Below are positions 4,235-35,227 of a stretch of DNA of 35,227 bases, one piece after another. Below the pieces are notes generated by a model, which worked only from the letters and a program-made list of their open reading frames with translations, did no database searches and was not told the DNA's origin. Source of the stretch: Longimicrobiaceae bacterium (GTDB lineage Bacteria > Gemmatimonadota > Gemmatimonadetes > Longimicrobiales > Longimicrobiaceae); NCBI GenBank assembly GCA_035696245.1, contig DASRQW010000493.1, positions 1 to 35,227 on the forward strand. Direction: 5' to 3'. Every line of letters starts with the position of its first letter. Within the stretch, counting starts at the first letter, position 1. The translations under genes were made by a program, and so were the position numbers.

Positions 4235-4290
4235 CTGGCGGTTGAAACCGCGGCAACACCTGCGCAAAGTCCGCCTTCGCGGACTAACTG
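4235..4290 (+). repeat. Two-hairpin repeat R1, copy 1
   Basis: This repeat of about 55 bp has two hairpins: GCGGTT-GA-AACCGC, then AGTCCGC-CTTC-GCGGACT. Related copies lie at 12618-12673, 12814-12868 and, inverted, at 19138-19188. It occupies the gap between the hydrolase and the DUF155 gene (4212-4427). Confidence 0.8.
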
Positions 4291-4427: not shown

Positions 4428-5588
4428 ATGCCGGATTCCGAGCAGGCGAGCACCGATCAGCCCCCAATCGCGCCCGACACCGCGGCCGCCGCGTTGGTGA
4501 TCGTGCGCGCGGCGACGGTGCGCGTGATCCGCATCTTCGACGTGGCGGAAGAGGTGGACCTGGCGGCGGTGGAGAAGCTGCTGGCCGGGCGCGCGTCGGT
4601 GGCGCGCATCCGCCTGTCGCGCGTGGAGCCCAAGGCCATCGCCTTCGACGATCCGCCCGTGGTCACCGACCTGCTGGCGAGCGCGCTGGACGTGCGGGGC
4701 GAACGAGCGGAGACGCGGGCGACGGCACGGATCCACGCCTTCGGCATCGTGTCGCTCTCCATCGAGGTGGCGCTGCCGCACGCGATGGAGTGGCCGCGCT
4801 TCGAGACCTTCGCGCGCGAGGCCGAGCGCGAGGCGGCGGCGCTTCCGTTCTGGCGCACGGCGCTGGACGACCTGCTCCGCGCGCTGGCGCCCGCGCTCGA
4901 CCAGCCCACGCCCACGCGCATGGAGGAGGACTACGCCATCGTCACCGTGCGCGACCTCCGGGCGCCGGTGCGCGCGTCGGCGCTGGCCACGGCCGTGGAC
5001 CTCGTCCCGCTCCTCACGCACGACGCCCGGCCGCTCAGCGAGGCCGCCCGCCGCGACGTGCTGCGCCACGCGCTGTCGTACTACGAGGACGACCTGGTGG
5101 TGCTGAGCTGGGAGCGCGCGCTGGTGGTGGAGCCGCAGCCGGACGACGACGTCTCGGACGTGCTGGAGGTCGCCAACGCGCAGCTGCTGGAGCTGCGCTA
5201 CTACGACGCGCTGCTGGACCGCGAGCTGCCGCGCATGTACCGGCTGGCCGCCGCCGTGCGCCGCCGCACCGCGCTGCGCCAGAACCGCTTCGCCAGCGCC
5301 GCCAACCAGATGCGCGGCCTGGTGGCCGAGGTCACGCAGATCACCGAGAAGGTGGACAACGCCATCAAGGTCACCGACGACGTGTACCTGGCGCGCGTGT
5401 ACGGCGCCGCATTGGAGCAGTTCCGCATGCGCTTCTGGACGGGCTCCATAGACCGCAAGCTGTCGCTGATCCGCGACACCTACACGGCTCTGTACGACGA
5501 GGCCGTCGCCACGCGGGCGGAGTGGATGGAGACGGCCATCCTGCTGCTCATCCTGCTGGAGGTCGTGGTGGCACTGATCCGGCACTGA
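4428..5588 (+). CDS. RMD1/YagE family (DUF155) membrane-anchored protein
   Basis: Protein of 386 residues matching the DUF155 family, whose eukaryotic members RMD1/RMND1 are mitochondrial and support mitochondrial translation; bacterial function is not established. The family core SYYEDDLVVLSWERALVV lies about residue 215, followed by a long charged helical region (LLELRYYDALLDRELPRMY). One transmembrane helix sits at the extreme C-terminus (AILLLILLEVVVALI), so the bulk of the protein should be cytoplasmic, tail-anchored. The start at ATG 4428 is chosen after the R1/R2 repeats; the frame is open upstream only through repeat sequence, and no good Shine-Dalgarno is visible. The HD-domain gene follows after 79 bp. 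Confidence 0.82.
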   Translation: MPDSEQASTDQPPIAPDTAAAALVIVRAATVRVIRIFDVAEEVDLAAVEKLLAGRASVARIRLSRVEPKAIAFDDPPVVTDLLASALDVRGERAETRATARIHAFGIVSLSIEVALPHAMEWPRFETFAREAEREAAALPFWRTALDDLLRALAPALDQPTPTRMEEDYAIVTVRDLRAPVRASALATAVDLVPLLTHDARPLSEAARRDVLRHALSYYEDDLVVLSWERALVVEPQPDDDVSDVLEVANAQLLELRYYDALLDRELPRMYRLAAAVRRRTALRQNRFASAANQMRGLVAEVTQITEKVDNAIKVTDDVYLARVYGAALEQFRMRFWTGSIDRKLSLIRDTYTALYDEAVATRAEWMETAILLLILLEVVVALIRH

Positions 5589-11065: not shown

Positions 11066-12006
11066 GGGTGCTCTTCTGGGGGACGCCGGAGTTCTCCATC
11101 CCCGCCCTGCGCGCGCTGGGCGAGGAGGGGCACGACGTGGTGGGCGTCGTCACGCAGCCCGACCGGCCGGCCGGTCGCGGGCGCGGCGTGCACATGTCCC
11201 CCGTGAAGCAGGACGCCATCGCCGAGGGCATCCCCGTGCTGCAGCCGGAGAAGGCGCGCGGCGACGAGTTCATGGCGCAGGTCCGCGCGCTCCAGCCGGA
11301 CGTCTCGGTCGTCGTGGCGTACGGGCAGATCCTGAAGCCCGAGGTGCTGGCGCTGCCGCGGCTGGGGTCGCTCAACATCCACGCTTCGCTGCTGCCGGAG
11401 CTGCGCGGCGCGGCGCCCATCCAGTGGGCCATCCTGCGCGGGCACGAGCAGTCCGGCGTCACCATCATGCGCATGGAGGCGGGGCTGGACAGCGGCCCCA
11501 TGCTGCTGCGCGTGGAGGAGCCCATCCGCGAGGACGAGTCGTCGAGCGAGCTTGCCGCGCGCCTGGCGGAGATCGGGGCCGAGGCGCTGGTGGAGACGCT
11601 GGCGATGCTGGAGGACGGCGAGGTCCAGGAGATCCCGCAGGACCTCGCCCTCGCCACGTACGCACCCAAGCTGAACCGCGAGACGGCGCGCATCGACTGG
11701 ACGCGCACCGCGGCCGAGGTCGCGCTGTGGATGCGCGGCATGGACGACGTGCCCGGCGCGTGGAGCACGCTCGGAGCCAAGGGCCCGGTCAAGCTCTTCC
11801 GCCCCCGCGTCGAATCGTCTTCGGGAGATGCGGAGCCGGGGACGGTGATCGAGGCCGACGCGGAGGCCGGCGTGCTGGTCGCCACGGGCGAGGGCGCGGT
11901 GCGCGTGCGCGAGGTGCAGCCGCCGGGCAAGCGCCGCATGGGCGCGGGCGAGTGGGTGCGCGGCCGCGGCGTCGCCGCCGGGGAGCGCTTTGGAGACGCC
12001 GCCTAG
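11062..12006 (+). CDS. fmt: Methionyl-tRNA formyltransferase
   Basis: Formylates initiator Met-tRNA using 10-formyl-tetrahydrofolate. It opens VRVLFWGTPEFSIPALRAL, carries the conserved HASLLPELRGAAPIQWA catalytic/folate block and a C-terminal OB-like domain (LFRPRVES onward, ending AAGERFGDAA). GTG 11062 overlaps the def stop by 4 nt and gives 314 residues; GTG 11047 is an alternative five codons upstream. The gene overlaps the following TenI/ThiE-like gene by 17 nt. Confidence 0.96.
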   Translation: MRVLFWGTPEFSIPALRALGEEGHDVVGVVTQPDRPAGRGRGVHMSPVKQDAIAEGIPVLQPEKARGDEFMAQVRALQPDVSVVVAYGQILKPEVLALPRLGSLNIHASLLPELRGAAPIQWAILRGHEQSGVTIMRMEAGLDSGPMLLRVEEPIREDESSSELAARLAEIGAEALVETLAMLEDGEVQEIPQDLALATYAPKLNRETARIDWTRTAAEVALWMRGMDDVPGAWSTLGAKGPVKLFRPRVESSSGDAEPGTVIEADAEAGVLVATGEGAVRVREVQPPGKRRMGAGEWVRGRGVAAGERFGDAA

Positions 12007-12628
12007 GCCCGTCCCCCCGCTCCACGCCGTCACCGACGACGCGGTCCTCGCGCGCCCGGACTTCCTCTCCGCCGCGCGGAGGGTGATCGAAGCGGGTGGC
12101 CCGCGCCTCGCGCTCCACCTGCGCGGCCCCGCGGCGAGCGGACGGGAGATGCACCGCCTCGCATCTTCCCTCGCCGCCGCCGCGAACGATGCGGGCGCGA
12201 CCCTGATCGTGAACGACCGCGTGGACGTGGCGCTCGCGGCCGGCGCGCACGGCGTGCAGATCGGCGCGCGCGGGCTGCTTCCGGGAGATGCACGGCGGCT
12301 GGTGGGAGATGCGCGGCTGCTCGGCGTCTCCGTCCACTCCGCGGCCGAGGCGGAAGCGGCGGTGGATGCACGGCCGGACTTCTTTCTCGCCGGTACGGTG
12401 TACCAGACCGCGTCGCATTCCGGGAAGCCGGCGGATGGCCTGCAAGCCATCTCCCGTCTCGCGCCCTTCGCCGTCCCGCTGATCGCCATCGGCGGCATCA
12501 CGCCGGAGCGCGTGCCGGCCGTGCTCGCCGCGGAAGCCACGGGCATCGCCGCGATCCGCGGCATCTGGGATGCGGCGGACGAGGGGGAGGCGGTTCGGAA
12601 GTACCTGGCGAGGCTGCCTGGCGGTTGA
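11990..12628 (+). CDS. tenI: TenI-like thiazole tautomerase (ThiE-family fold)
   Basis: 212-residue TIM-barrel protein of the ThiE/TenI family. Features resemble Bacillus TenI: LGVSVHSAAEA (the His equivalent to the TenI active-site His), VYQTASHSGKPADGL and IAIGGITPERVPAVLAAEATGIAAIRGI. Residues expected in ThiE are missing: the QLREK-like phosphate motif reads HLRGP, and the TPTK loop reads TASH. TenI aromatises the ThiG product, which fits thiS and thiG downstream. Many pipelines would call this thiamine-phosphate synthase, and that remains possible. The TTG start at 11990 follows GGGGAG and overlaps fmt. The final codons and TGA stop lie inside an R1 repeat (12618-12673). Confidence 0.75.
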   Translation: METPPRPVPPLHAVTDDAVLARPDFLSAARRVIEAGGPRLALHLRGPAASGREMHRLASSLAAAANDAGATLIVNDRVDVALAAGAHGVQIGARGLLPGDARRLVGDARLLGVSVHSAAEAEAAVDARPDFFLAGTVYQTASHSGKPADGLQAISRLAPFAVPLIAIGGITPERVPAVLAAEATGIAAIRGIWDAADEGEAVRKYLARLPGG

Positions 12629-12673
12629 ACCCGCAGCAACGACTGCGCAAAGTCGGCCTACGGGGACTAACCC
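12618..12673 (+). repeat. Two-hairpin repeat R1, copy 2
   Basis: Degenerate copy: first hairpin GCGGTTGAACCCGC with one mismatch, second stem reduced to AGTC/GACT. It overlaps the end of the preceding gene, and the TGA at 12626-12628 is part of the repeat. Confidence 0.75.
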
Positions 12674-12717
12674 CGAGGCTTCCATCGGTGATGAGGTTCG
12701 GGCACGCAGCGAAGCCC

Positions 12718-12780
12718 CAACCCTCTCCCGCTTGCGGGGGAGGGTGCGAGCCTAAGCGAGCGGGAGGGGGCGCTTCCGCT
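12718..12780 (+). repeat. GC-rich repeat R2, copy 2
   Basis: CAACCCTCTCCCGC / GCGGGGGAGGGT palindrome followed by an AAGCGAGCGGGAGGGGGCGC tail ending CTTCCGCT, closely matching 4337-4408. It lies 45 bp after R1 copy 2. Confidence 0.75.
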
Positions 12781-12813: not shown

Positions 12814-12868
12814 CTGGCGGTTGAAACCGCGGCAACGACTGCGCAAAGTCCGCCTTCGCGGACTAACG
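12814..12868 (+). repeat. Two-hairpin repeat R1, copy 3
   Basis: Near-identical to copy 1 at 4235, with both hairpins intact. The 555-bp gap 12629-13183 holds R1 copies 2 and 3, R2, R3 and the 160-bp inverted-repeat arm. I see no gene in it. Confidence 0.8.
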
Positions 12869-12921
12869 GCGCGGTGGGGAGTTCGGTGCGGCGCCTGGCT
12901 CCTGCGCATGCGGAAGGGCGT

Positions 12922-12947
12922 CGGATGCGATGAATCGCACCCCTACA
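12922..12947 (+). repeat. 26-bp palindromic-core repeat R3, copy 1
   Basis: CGGA + TGCGATGAATCGCA + CCCCTACA. The core has 6-bp inverted arms TGCGAT/ATCGCA. It differs by one base from the copies at 21858 and 29585. Confidence 0.85.
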
Positions 12948-13009: not shown

Positions 13010-13168
13010 GCTGCTCGACCCGCCCATCCGCAGCGCGCAGCGCGAGTCGCCAGCGCAGCAGGGGCGAGGGGCAACGCTCGACTCATACCATGCCTCGGCG
13101 GCGCCAATGGCGTGCCTTCCCCCGCTTGCGGGGGAGGGCAGGCGAGCCTTGCGAGCCGGGTGAGGGCC
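13010..13168 (+). repeat. Left arm of a long inverted repeat
   Basis: About 160 bp. It matches the reverse complement of 18912-19072 at both ends: GCTGCTCGACCC and CAGCGCGCAGCGCGAGTC on one side, the CCTTCCCCCGCTTGCGGGGG block and CGAGCCGGGTGAGGGCC on the other, with a diverged middle. It stops 15 bp before the thiS start codon. Confidence 0.8.
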
Positions 13169-13627: not shown

Positions 13628-14437
13628 ATGACCGAGATCGCGATGGTGCCGGAGGTGGACGCGGGCGACGAGCCGCTGGTGATCGCGGGGCGCACCATGC
13701 GCTCGCGGCTGCTGGTGGGCACGGGCAAGTACCGCGACAACGAGCAGATGGTGCAGGCCATCGAGGCCAGCGGTGCCGAGGTGGTGACCGTGGCCGTGCG
13801 CCGCGTGGACCTGGACCGAACCAAGGAGGAGGGCGTCCTCTTCCACCTGGACCCCGAGCGCTACCTGCTGCTCCCCAACACCGCCGGCTGCTACACGGCC
13901 GAGGACGCGATCCGCTACTCGCGCCTGGCGCGCGCCGCCGGCTTCACCGACTGGGTGAAGCTGGAGGTGATCGGCGACCAGGAGACGCTGCTGCCGGACG
14001 CCGAGGCGACGCTGAAGGCCGCGCGGGAGCTGGTGGCGGACGGCTTCAAGGTCCTCGCCTACACCAACGACGACCTCATCACCGCGCTGCGGCTGGAGGA
14101 CGCGGGCTGCGCGGCGGTGATGCCGCTCGCCTCGCCCATCGGCAGCGGATTGGGGCTGGTCAACCCGTTCAACATCCGCACGATCAAGTCGCGCCTGAAG
14201 GTGCCCGTGATCGTCGATGCCGGCGTGGGCACGGCGTCGGACGCGGCGGTCACGATGGAGCAGGGCGTGGACGGCATCCTGATGAACACCGCGCTGGCCG
14301 AGGCGCAGGAGCCGGTGCGAATGGCGCGCGCCATGGCTCTGGCGACCGAGGCCGGGCGGCTGGCGTACCTGGCCGGCCGCATGCCGCGCCGCGAGCGCGC
14401 GGTGCCCAGCAGCCCCCGCCGCGGGATGCTGGATTGA
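13628..14437 (+). CDS. thiG: Thiazole synthase
   Basis: Forms the thiamin thiazole from deoxyxylulose 5-phosphate, an imine and ThiS-thiocarboxylate. It opens with [17 protein letters not shown], carries the Schiff-base Lys111 in [12 protein letters not shown], the phosphate-binding [15 protein letters not shown] and [14 protein letters not shown]. Length 269 is normal. GAGGG precedes ATG 13628. rsmB begins 16 bp after the stop, so the thiazole genes appear to head the downstream operon. Confidence 0.95.
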
Positions 14438-17873: not shown

Positions 17874-18931
17874 GCACGGCGCCGCTGGTGCTGGGCATCG
17901 AGAGCTCGTGCGACGAGACGTCGGCCGCCGTGCTGCGGGGCGAGACGGAGCTGCTGGGGCACGTGATCTTCACGCAGGACGTACACCGGCTGTACGGCGG
18001 CGTGGTGCCGGAGCTGGCGTCGCGCGCGCACCTGCGCACGGTGGACGACGTGGTCGCGGGTGCGCTGCGCGAGGCGGGCGTGACGCTGGACGACGTCGCC
18101 GTCGTGGGCGTGACGGCCGGGCCGGGGCTGATCGGCGCCCTCTTGGTGGGCGTGGCGTGGGCGAAGGCGGCGGCGTGGGCGGCGGGGAAGCCCGTCGTGG
18201 GCGTGCACCACATGGAGGCGCACCTGTTCGCCGCGCAGCTGGAGCACCCGGCCGCGAAGCCGCCGTTCATCGGCCTGCTCGTCTCCGGCGGGCACACCAT
18301 GCTGCTGTGGGTGCCCGCGTGGGGCGAGTACCACCTGCTGGGCGCCACGCGCGACGACGCGAGCGGCGAGGCGTTCGACAAGGCGGCGAAGATCCTGGGT
18401 CTGCCGTACCCCGGCGGCCCGGCCATCCAGCGCGCGGCGGCGGACGGCGACCCGAAGCGGCACCGCCTGCCGCGGCCGCTGCTCACCCGAGCGCAGCGGC
18501 CGGGCGAGCGCGACTTCTACGACATGTCCTTCAGCGGACTGAAGACGGCGCTGCGGGTGAAGGTGCGCGACCTGGAAGGGCAGGGGATCGACCTCGCGCC
18601 CGAGGTGCCTCACCTCGCCGCGGCGTTCCAGGATGCCGTGGTGGATGTGCTCGCGACGAAGACGATGCGGGCCGTGAAGGAGACGCGGTGCACGCGCGTC
18701 GTCCTCGGCGGCGGCGTCGCCAACAGCCGCGCCCTGCGCGACGAGCTGAAGCGCCGCCTCGGCCCCGGCGGCGAGCTGTACCATCCATCGCCCCGGCTGG
18801 CGACGGACAACGGCGCCATGATCGCCCGCGCCGCGCTCTTCCACCACGAGCGCGGCGAGACGGCGGGGCTGGACCTGAACGCGCGGGCGGATCTGCCGTT
18901 TCCGGGGCTGCGGCCCTCACCCGGCTCGTAA
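17870..18931 (+). CDS. tsaD: tRNA N6-threonylcarbamoyladenosine transferase subunit TsaD
   Basis: Catalytic subunit that transfers threonylcarbamoyl to A37 of ANN-decoding tRNAs. Motifs: LGIESSCDETSAAVL at the N-terminus, PGLIGALLVG, HHMEAHLFA (metal-binding His pair), LVSGGHT, DDASGEAFDKAAKILGL, and VVLGGGVANSRALRD. Length 353 is normal. GTG 17870 follows GAGGGA and overlaps the ybbR stop. The last residues (RPSPGS) and the TAA stop are encoded by the right arm of the long inverted repeat. TsaB, TsaE and TsaC are not in the window. Confidence 0.96.
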   Translation: MSTAPLVLGIESSCDETSAAVLRGETELLGHVIFTQDVHRLYGGVVPELASRAHLRTVDDVVAGALREAGVTLDDVAVVGVTAGPGLIGALLVGVAWAKAAAWAAGKPVVGVHHMEAHLFAAQLEHPAAKPPFIGLLVSGGHTMLLWVPAWGEYHLLGATRDDASGEAFDKAAKILGLPYPGGPAIQRAAADGDPKRHRLPRPLLTRAQRPGERDFYDMSFSGLKTALRVKVRDLEGQGIDLAPEVPHLAAAFQDAVVDVLATKTMRAVKETRCTRVVLGGGVANSRALRDELKRRLGPGGELYHPSPRLATDNGAMIARAALFHHERGETAGLDLNARADLPFPGLRPSPGS

Positions 18932-19072
18932 AACTCGCCTGCCCTCCCCCGCAAGCGGGGGAAGGAACGGCGGCGGAGCATGCTGGGAACTCCGCGGTCT
19001 ACGGTAGCGTCCGCGCTGCCGGATCGGTGGCGGACTCGCGCTGCGCGCTGCGGGAGGGGTGGGTCGAGCAGC
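18912..19072 (-). repeat. Right arm of a long inverted repeat
   Basis: Reverse-complement relative of 13010-13168, about 160 bp. It begins inside the tsaD coding region and supplies its stop codon. The rest of the gap 18932-19345 holds an inverted R1 copy and no recognisable gene. Confidence 0.8.
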
Positions 19073-19137: not shown

Positions 19138-19188
19138 AGCCCGCGCAGGCGGGCTTCGTGCCGTCGTAGCCCGCGGCTTTAGCCGCCC
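19138..19188 (-). repeat. Two-hairpin repeat R1, copy 4 (inverted, with compensatory changes)
   Basis: Read on the plus strand: AGCCCGC-GCAG-GCGGGCT, then GCGGCT-TT-AGCCGC. It aligns over its length with the reverse complement of copies 1 and 3 (AGTCCGC-GAAG-GCGGACT; GCGGTT-TC-AACCGC). Stem and loop lengths are identical. A T-A pair has become C-G in each stem. Confidence 0.75.
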
Positions 19189-19345
19189 GGGCGATGCGGC
19201 GGCGACGCACCATCTCGAAACGGGCTGACTGGCCGAGTGCCCGGCTGTTCATCTCCCGAAACGCCGAACGGTTCACGTGGTACGCAAGTAGCATGGACAC
19301 GGCGGGTCCGTCCGCCATTCGCCAGAGAACGCCCACGGTCCCGGC

Positions 19346-21818: not shown

Positions 21819-21848
21819 AAGGCTGCCCGAGCATCGGCAGCCTTCTTC
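21819..21848 (+). terminator. Intrinsic terminator after the AsmA-like gene
   Basis: AAGGCTGCC, 8-nt loop, GGCAGCCTT, then CTT: a 9-bp stem including two closing A-T pairs. It lies 26 nt after the stop codon and is the clearest rho-independent terminator in the window. Confidence 0.8.
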
Positions 21849-21857
21849 GCATGTCGT

Positions 21858-21883
21858 TGTAGGGGTGCGATTTATCGCATCCG
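21858..21883 (-). repeat. 26-bp palindromic-core repeat R3, copy 2
   Basis: Reverse complement of the copy at 29585-29610, with core TGCGATTTATCGCA on the plus strand. It lies 10 bp beyond the terminator. The rest of the gap to 22132 shows no gene or structure I recognise. Confidence 0.85.
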
Positions 21884-22132
21884 CCCTCCCCGCCTGGACC
21901 GCATCCCCCGAAATCACAGCGATCTTCCGGCAGCAGTCTGCGCAGCCGTTCTGCCTTCGTCGCCGAGAGTGTACGCGCCAGGGGGATGCAACCGCCGTGA
22001 TCTCCGATCCAACGCTCCGACGTTCACGGCGAACCAACTTGGCGTGCCGATAGTCCCCGCCGTAGCCTCCGCTCCCTCGCTTCCTGCCGTCGCCGCGTGC
22101 TCCCTCGGCGCCCCTTCACCATACAACTCCGC

Positions 22133-29481: not shown

Positions 29482-29584
29482 GTTCATCTACCGAAATTCC
29501 TGCCATACATCTTCCGAATCCGACCCGATCATCTGCGGGCTGCCTGATCGCGCGGGTCGGCGAGTCTGCGCGGGCGGAGAGTGG

Positions 29585-29610
29585 CGGATGCGATAAATCG
29601 CACCCCTACA
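29585..29610 (+). repeat. 26-bp palindromic-core repeat R3, copy 3
   Basis: CGGA + TGCGATAAATCGCA + CCCCTACA, the consensus form, 15 bp from the speA stop codon. Confidence 0.85.
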
Positions 29611-29625
29611 ACAAGATGCGTGGGT

Positions 29626-34859: not shown

Positions 34860-35060
34860 GCTGCTTGCGGCCGCCGCGCGTCGGCCGGCATTTCGTGGGG
34901 GGTAGCTGCGGGTGCCGCACATCTACCGATGATCGATGCTGAACGTTGCGTGGCCGGCCGTTCATCGACCGTGATTCTTTGCACATGAACCCGGCCTCCG
35001 CGCTGGAGCATCGGAGCGGATGTGCCTCGCTGTCGGGAGATGGGTAGCGTGCCGAGAGCG

Positions 35061-35086
35061 CGGATGCGATAAATCGCACCCTTACA
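35061..35086 (+). repeat. 26-bp palindromic-core repeat R3, copy 4
   Basis: CGGA + TGCGATAAATCGCA + CCCTTACA, one base different from the consensus. The region 34860-35227 also holds CATCTACCGAT (34921) and TCGGGAGATGGG (35033) motifs. I see no gene in it. Confidence 0.85.
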
Positions 35087-35227
35087 AATGGATAGACGAG
35101 CGAGATTGGCGGGAGGGTTGACGGGTTGAATAGGTTCCGGGGGCGGAGATGGGCGGCTGCAGTGCGGTCGCCTTCGCTTGACCCCATGTGCCGCCAGGGG
35201 TAAACTTTCGCGATTCGAGCTTGTGAC

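Follow-up and report, generated by a model that had tools for sequence, protein, structure and literature searches.

A short repeat made of two hairpins (R1) recurs in the window, that is, the whole 35,227-nt stretch of DNA that was analysed, in copies whose stems differ by paired base changes; the question raised by this locus is what the pairing is kept for and how such copies came to be scattered.

Architecture of R1 in the window

Four R1 copies were found in the window with a sequence-only HMM. Read directly, two of them on the plus strand (4238-4285 and 12817-12864) consist of GCGGTT-GA-AACCGC, a 16-nt spacer and AGTCCGC-CTTC-GCGGACT, and the copy on the minus strand (19186-19138) consists of GCGGCT-AA-AGCCGC (hairpin 1, 19186-19173), a 17-nt spacer and AGCCCGC-CTGC-GCGGGCT (hairpin 2, 19155-19138). 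The sequence-only reading, which had placed the first two copies at 4235 and 12814 and had noted that one T-A pair is replaced by C-G in each stem of the inverted copy, with stem and loop lengths kept, is borne out; the replacements fall on pair 5 of hairpin 1 and pair 3 of hairpin 2, the loop bases differ as well, and the spacer is longer by one base. Both plus-strand copies belong to subfamily A; the one at 4238-4285 carries a GTTG-type tag in the spacer, on the opposite strand, and follows by 26 bp the end (4211) of an alpha/beta-hydrolase-like ORF. The minus-strand copy is a member of subfamily B, with a GTAG tag on the plus strand about three bases before the hairpin-1 stem.

The fourth copy (12621-12668, plus strand) had been described, at 12618, as degenerate, and indeed one pair is broken in its hairpin 1 and two in its hairpin 2, which fits an old, decaying insertion. 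The TGA stop of a thiamine-monophosphate-synthase-like ORF (11990-12628) is contributed by hairpin 1 of this copy, the ORF overlapping the repeat at 12621-12628; the next gene, thiG (13628-14437), follows after about 1 kb rich in repeats. Two further dispersed palindromic repeats are present in the window, one with the core CCCTCCCCCGCTTGCGGGGGAGGG (12716-12745, 13111-13168 and 18912-18969, the two 58-nt copies being 93% complementary), the other, TGTAGGGGTGCGATTTATCGCATCCGC, in both orientations (12915-12947, 21848-21911, 29578-29620 and 35033-35087). A motif like TTTCGGGAGATGAACAGCCG is found 20-80 bp from many R1 copies (19240-19265 on the minus strand, and the upstream flanks of L018, L029, L032 and L034); possibly it is another repeat or a favoured neighbourhood for insertion.

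Copy number and dispersal

A pattern in which the variable pair positions were left free matched 109 R1 copies in the 5.65-Mb genome, and a broader pattern matched 121; the reversed controls gave none in either case, and the copy number, at least 121, is far beyond chance. The sequence-only HMM, which is blind to pairing, recovered 94 copies in 846 kb, a sample made up of 60 stretches plus the window, its contigs having been chosen as already known holders of copies. The copies fall into subfamilies A, B and C, of which B and C carry GTAG 2-3 nt from the stem and A carries GTTG. Hybrids between A and B are present and one architecture runs throughout; the idea that the copies might stem from two unrelated sequence families, raised at the outset as a possible refutation, was therefore rejected.

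Sets of 10 and of 7 R1 copies share identical 48-mers; of the 94 dispersed copies in the 846 kb, 10 have the 48-mer of the copy at 12817-12864. The boundary of the repeat is sharp, a few bases outside the hairpins, and beyond it the flanks of identical copies are unrelated; conservation that stops so abruptly is what dispersed insertions would show. Longer homologous flanks (GAATCGGTGCGGCC...CCGATGGTCCGAATCGCTTCGGCGAGAC) are common to a subset of subfamily B (L051, L059, L060, L063 and L064), which suggests a larger composite element.

Close neighbours are few: among the 94 copies five pairs lie within 500 bp of each other, two of the five inverted, and for this reason what moves is likely to be one two-hairpin unit by itself, in contrast to REPINs. 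The same dispersal bears on the idea that R1 is a CRISPR-like direct repeat or an attachment site, for which a match of hairpin 2 to Rfam CRISPR-DR28 might speak (29 bits, below the cut-off of 35); the copies are dispersed singly, and no regular array was seen among them. Given a match this weak and copies this dispersed, a CRISPR repeat was rejected, and the chance left to this explanation is negligible.

Covariation and the reason for pairing

Covariation among copies of this genome was assessed with 59 unique copies and 48 columns by a G-test with average-product correction and a tree-based null, in an implementation of our own that is R-scape in style and not R-scape itself. Stem pairs took ranks 1-3 among the 1,128 column pairs, an outcome in favour of the covariation that the sequence-only reading had put up for checking. 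For pair 6 of hairpin 2 no null value as high arose in 60 simulations; pair 5 of hairpin 1 reached E = 0.03 and pair 3 of hairpin 2 E = 0.12, where E refers to the full set of 1,128 pairs and would be much smaller if only the 13 pairs of the proposed structure were counted. At the three stem positions that vary most, three or four pair types occur (pair 5 of hairpin 1 is found as T-A, C-G, G-C and A-T), and across families some stem positions are invariant and others take all four pairs. When transposase flanks (see below) and four types from this genome were combined, 99.4% of cells were paired in the resulting 24 sequences, a figure somewhat favoured by a choice made by eye for the 6-bp/7-bp format, with double changes at 7 of the 13 pairs; the covariation score was 0.426 versus 0.142 in shuffles, none of 500 of which reached it.

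The proposal of selection on a folded RNA or an extruded DNA structure thus stands as far as conserved pairing is concerned; its RNA half, read as a host element, probably does not. A structured short RNA or 3'-UTR element of the host, whose fold the double changes preserve, would account for two stable hairpins and for the position of the copies, 74 of 83 of which (about 89%) lie outside ORFs called with a crude ORF caller, often near gene ends. However, the orientation of neighbouring genes is mixed (downstream 24 same and 15 opposite, upstream 13 same and 20 opposite), and the stem mismatches in copies of this genome (4 G-T, 5 A-C, 10 other) betray no preference for wobble pairs on either strand. 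Neither a terminator nor a promoter was found at the 4.2-kb copy, the sole copy scanned, no Rfam family matched at gathering score within the window, and the flanking of transposase genes described below would be left unexplained; a host RNA is thus highly improbable. As the mismatches lack strand bias and the copies lack a consistent orientation to genes, a role in single-stranded DNA, as the substrate of a transposase, is a likelier reason for the conserved pairing than a host RNA. For the most part the double changes tell apart inherited subfamilies of an element that is dispersed, and do not reflect recurrent substitution at a single host locus.

A transposase gene between inverted copies

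A single Y1/HUH transposase gene (Y1_Tnp) was found in the genome, at G000:C310:5071-5412 on the minus strand (locus L069); it sits between inverted two-hairpin copies at C310:4904-4951 (plus) and 5466-5513 (minus), the stems of which add further pair types (GCGGGT/ACCCGC and AGCCCAC/GTGGGCT). Hairpin 2 of subfamily A (AGTCCGC) is without a match in these flanks; either the enzyme of subfamily A has been lost, or it is unassembled, or the present transposase acts more broadly. The protein matches Pfam Y1_Tnp, and its sequence relatives with solved structures include ISHp608 and other IS200/IS605-type transposases. The NCBIfam IS200 model scores above its cut-off and REP_Tyr_transpos below (19.9 versus 80). 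By its motifs, and not by the published HMMs, the enzyme can be assigned to TnpA_Y1 subclass 1.2; DHVH, WQ and Y---Q--HH are found in the transposases compared here, the last in 95 of 101 proteins examined for motifs.

In the 2018 classification (PMC6006769) subclass 1.2 is listed with "no" under REP, as close to IS200/IS605 transposases and without IS properties. Only repeats with a paired stem of 7-20 nt and with GTAG or GTGG could pass the REP screen in that study; hairpin 1, at 6 bp, and the GTTG tags would fail it, which may explain why R1-type repeats were missed.

Co-distribution of genes and repeats

Among 21 genomes of the family, 13 contain a Y1_Tnp gene, and all of these contain the R1-type repeat in 6-243 copies; of the eight without the gene, six lack the repeat as well. 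The remaining two, G005 and G009, hold repeats but no Y1_Tnp gene was found in their incomplete assemblies (72% and 86% complete). Co-occurrence of gene and repeat (Fisher p = 5e-4) and the relation between their numbers (Spearman 0.71) were both calculated over the 21 genomes with kinship ignored.

The variants match, too. The hairpin-2 variant AAGCCTCCCTNCGGAGGCT of locus L080 has 48 occurrences in G006, the genome of L080, three in G014 and none in the other 19 genomes. The hairpin-1 variant of L081 and L095 is present in 25 copies in G014 and 55 in G015, their own genomes; elsewhere there are 30 copies in G011 (same genus), three in G010, two in G002 and none in the rest. The 30 copies in G011 are unlike the flanks of the two transposase genes detected there. 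Hence, the two flank variants tested occur almost only with the matching transposase or in close kin; an association of transposases with repeat variants of their own was found in these two cases, subfamily A of the present genome being an exception.

REPs of E. coli have roles as gyrase or nucleoid-protein sites or as stabilisers of mRNA 3' ends. R1 could be put to similar, BIME-like use by its host, transposition being only historical; besides such roles being on record, the intergenic preference of the copies and the presence of one transposase gene against at least 121 repeats would agree with this. The sets of identical 48-mers (10 and 7) and the transposase-matched variants argue instead for fairly recent spread, and host roles and transposition do not exclude each other; as an account of R1, host use with transposition confined to the past appears unlikely.

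Flanks of related transposase genes

The arrangement at L069 is common. Significant inverted flanks were present at 83 of 108 Y1 loci (28 from the family and 80 from named genomes of other groups) versus one of 193 control spans, and no such flank was detected at the other 25 loci; within the family the proportion is 27 of 28. The flanks are mostly of two-hairpin design with different stem sequences, two perfect hairpins being found in 53 of the 83 inverted flanks versus 3 of 415 shuffled sequences. By phylum, as taken from record titles, inverted flanks occur at 28 of 35 loci in Cyanobacteria, 10 of 21 in Chloroflexota, 5 of 6 in Armatimonadota, 3 of 3 in Planctomycetota and 3 of 4 in Verrucomicrobiota, with others besides. 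The published entry for subclass 1.2, no REP or terminal hairpins, is contradicted by these 83 loci. Of 12 cyanobacterial genomes tested, 9 contain dispersed hairpin-1-type units (the search made no demand on hairpin 2) that show the same paired changes; the hairpin-1 half of the cyanobacterial elements may be among the GTAG families known in filamentous cyanobacteria (PMC3733652). At L083 (G002:C676) the transposase locus has nested inverted two-hairpin repeats of two types on each side.

At L084 the left and right flanks of the gene carry different perfect stems, as would be expected if quasi-palindrome correction, that is, template switching during replication, perfected palindromes without selection for function; the paired changes could then arise in one step. 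Such correction gives no account of why the palindromes flank transposase genes and vary with them, nor of invariant stem positions beside positions that take all four pairs, and is an improbable explanation.

Proposed mechanism and meaning

Taken together, the evidence points, with a probability of roughly 0.85, to R1 as a miniature mobile element of REP-like type that a Y1 transposase probably spreads in trans and likely recognises through hairpins in single-stranded DNA. The unit would be one of about 50-60 bp, with two different hairpins, a 16-17 nt spacer and a GTAG/GTTG tag on one strand, and its mover is probably the HUH/Y1 single-strand transposase (TnpA_Y1) encoded at L069. Recognition most likely takes place when the DNA is single-stranded, for instance in the lagging-strand template; by analogy to TnpA_REP and IS200/IS605 (PMC8266576, PMC3116915), the strand would be cut beside the hairpins, guided by the tag, and the unit reinserted, presumably as one two-hairpin unit and not as an inverted doublet. 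In function, the hairpins may correspond to the two ends, left and right, of an IS200/IS605 element. Once a stem is unpaired, the copy would no longer be mobilised and would decay, so that stems stay paired as their sequence drifts.

A wider reading, for which the odds seem about even, is that class-1 Y1 transposases of subclass 1.2 form a multi-phylum system (Gemmatimonadota, Cyanobacteria, Chloroflexota, Armatimonadota and others) by which asymmetric two-hairpin elements are spread, one unit, carrying both "ends", being the smallest complete substrate for single-strand transposition. R1 would provide a probable substrate for an HUH transposase subclass that the published classification leaves without one, and dozens of enzyme/repeat pairs whose stem base pairs, loops and tag change in concert offer a natural experiment on specificity. 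It also bears on the minimal mobile unit of REP systems, which here is apparently a single two-hairpin element and not an inverted doublet.

Comparison with known systems

No relevant open-access literature was found on the R1 sequence or on repeats in Longimicrobium-type bacteria, and the comparison is with systems from elsewhere. IS200/IS605 elements (IS608, ISDra2) provide the transposases of solved structure closest by sequence and likewise have hairpins at their ends; unlike them, one Y1 gene here faces at least 121 short non-coding copies, the ends are long inverted repeats, and multiple near-identical copies of the transposase gene, by which an IS is recognised, are lacking in this genome with its one Y1 gene. 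TnpA_Y1 subclass 1.2 (Quentin et al. 2018, PMC6006769) agrees in its motifs (DH[IV]H, WQ, Y---Q--HH), its length of about 148 aa, its low copy number and its frequency in Cyanobacteria, whereas most such genes studied here have inverted, usually two-hairpin flanks.

TIRYTs and TIRtrons (PMC3733652) share with R1 a Y1 gene within inverted repeats, some of them double palindromes, and repeats elsewhere in some genomes; most TIRYTs, however, belong to subclass 2.1 with a C-terminal HTH domain (PMC6006769), unlike the short class-1 protein of R1. The REPINs of Pseudomonas (PMC3116915) are short non-autonomous units with compensatory changes, too, and their mover is probably a RAYT. In a REPIN one REP is present as an inverted doublet, and singlets are decayed remnants; single R1 units, in contrast, include many identical, apparently young copies, with two inverted neighbouring pairs among 94.

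The closest likeness is to GTAG-tagged REPs and REPtrons (TnpA_REP/RAYT; PMC3733652, PMC6006769, PMC8266576), which are high-copy, mostly intergenic palindromes with covarying stems and a 5' tetranucleotide tag near one hairpin, and in which a Y1 transposase gene between inverted copies is matched by repeats in the genome. The definition of a REPtron also includes cleavage of single-stranded REP DNA at a dinucleotide by the cognate transposase. R1 differs from REPs in that its unit has two different hairpins at a fixed short spacing, the tag of subfamily A is GTTG where REPs are defined by GT[AG]G 0-2 nt from the hairpin foot, and the hairpin-1 stem has 6 bp where the published screen needs 7; its transposase is of class 1 (Y---Q--HH) and not, as in REPtrons, of class 2 (Y---NP). 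With these differences, the R1 system is a variant within the REP/REPtron kind.
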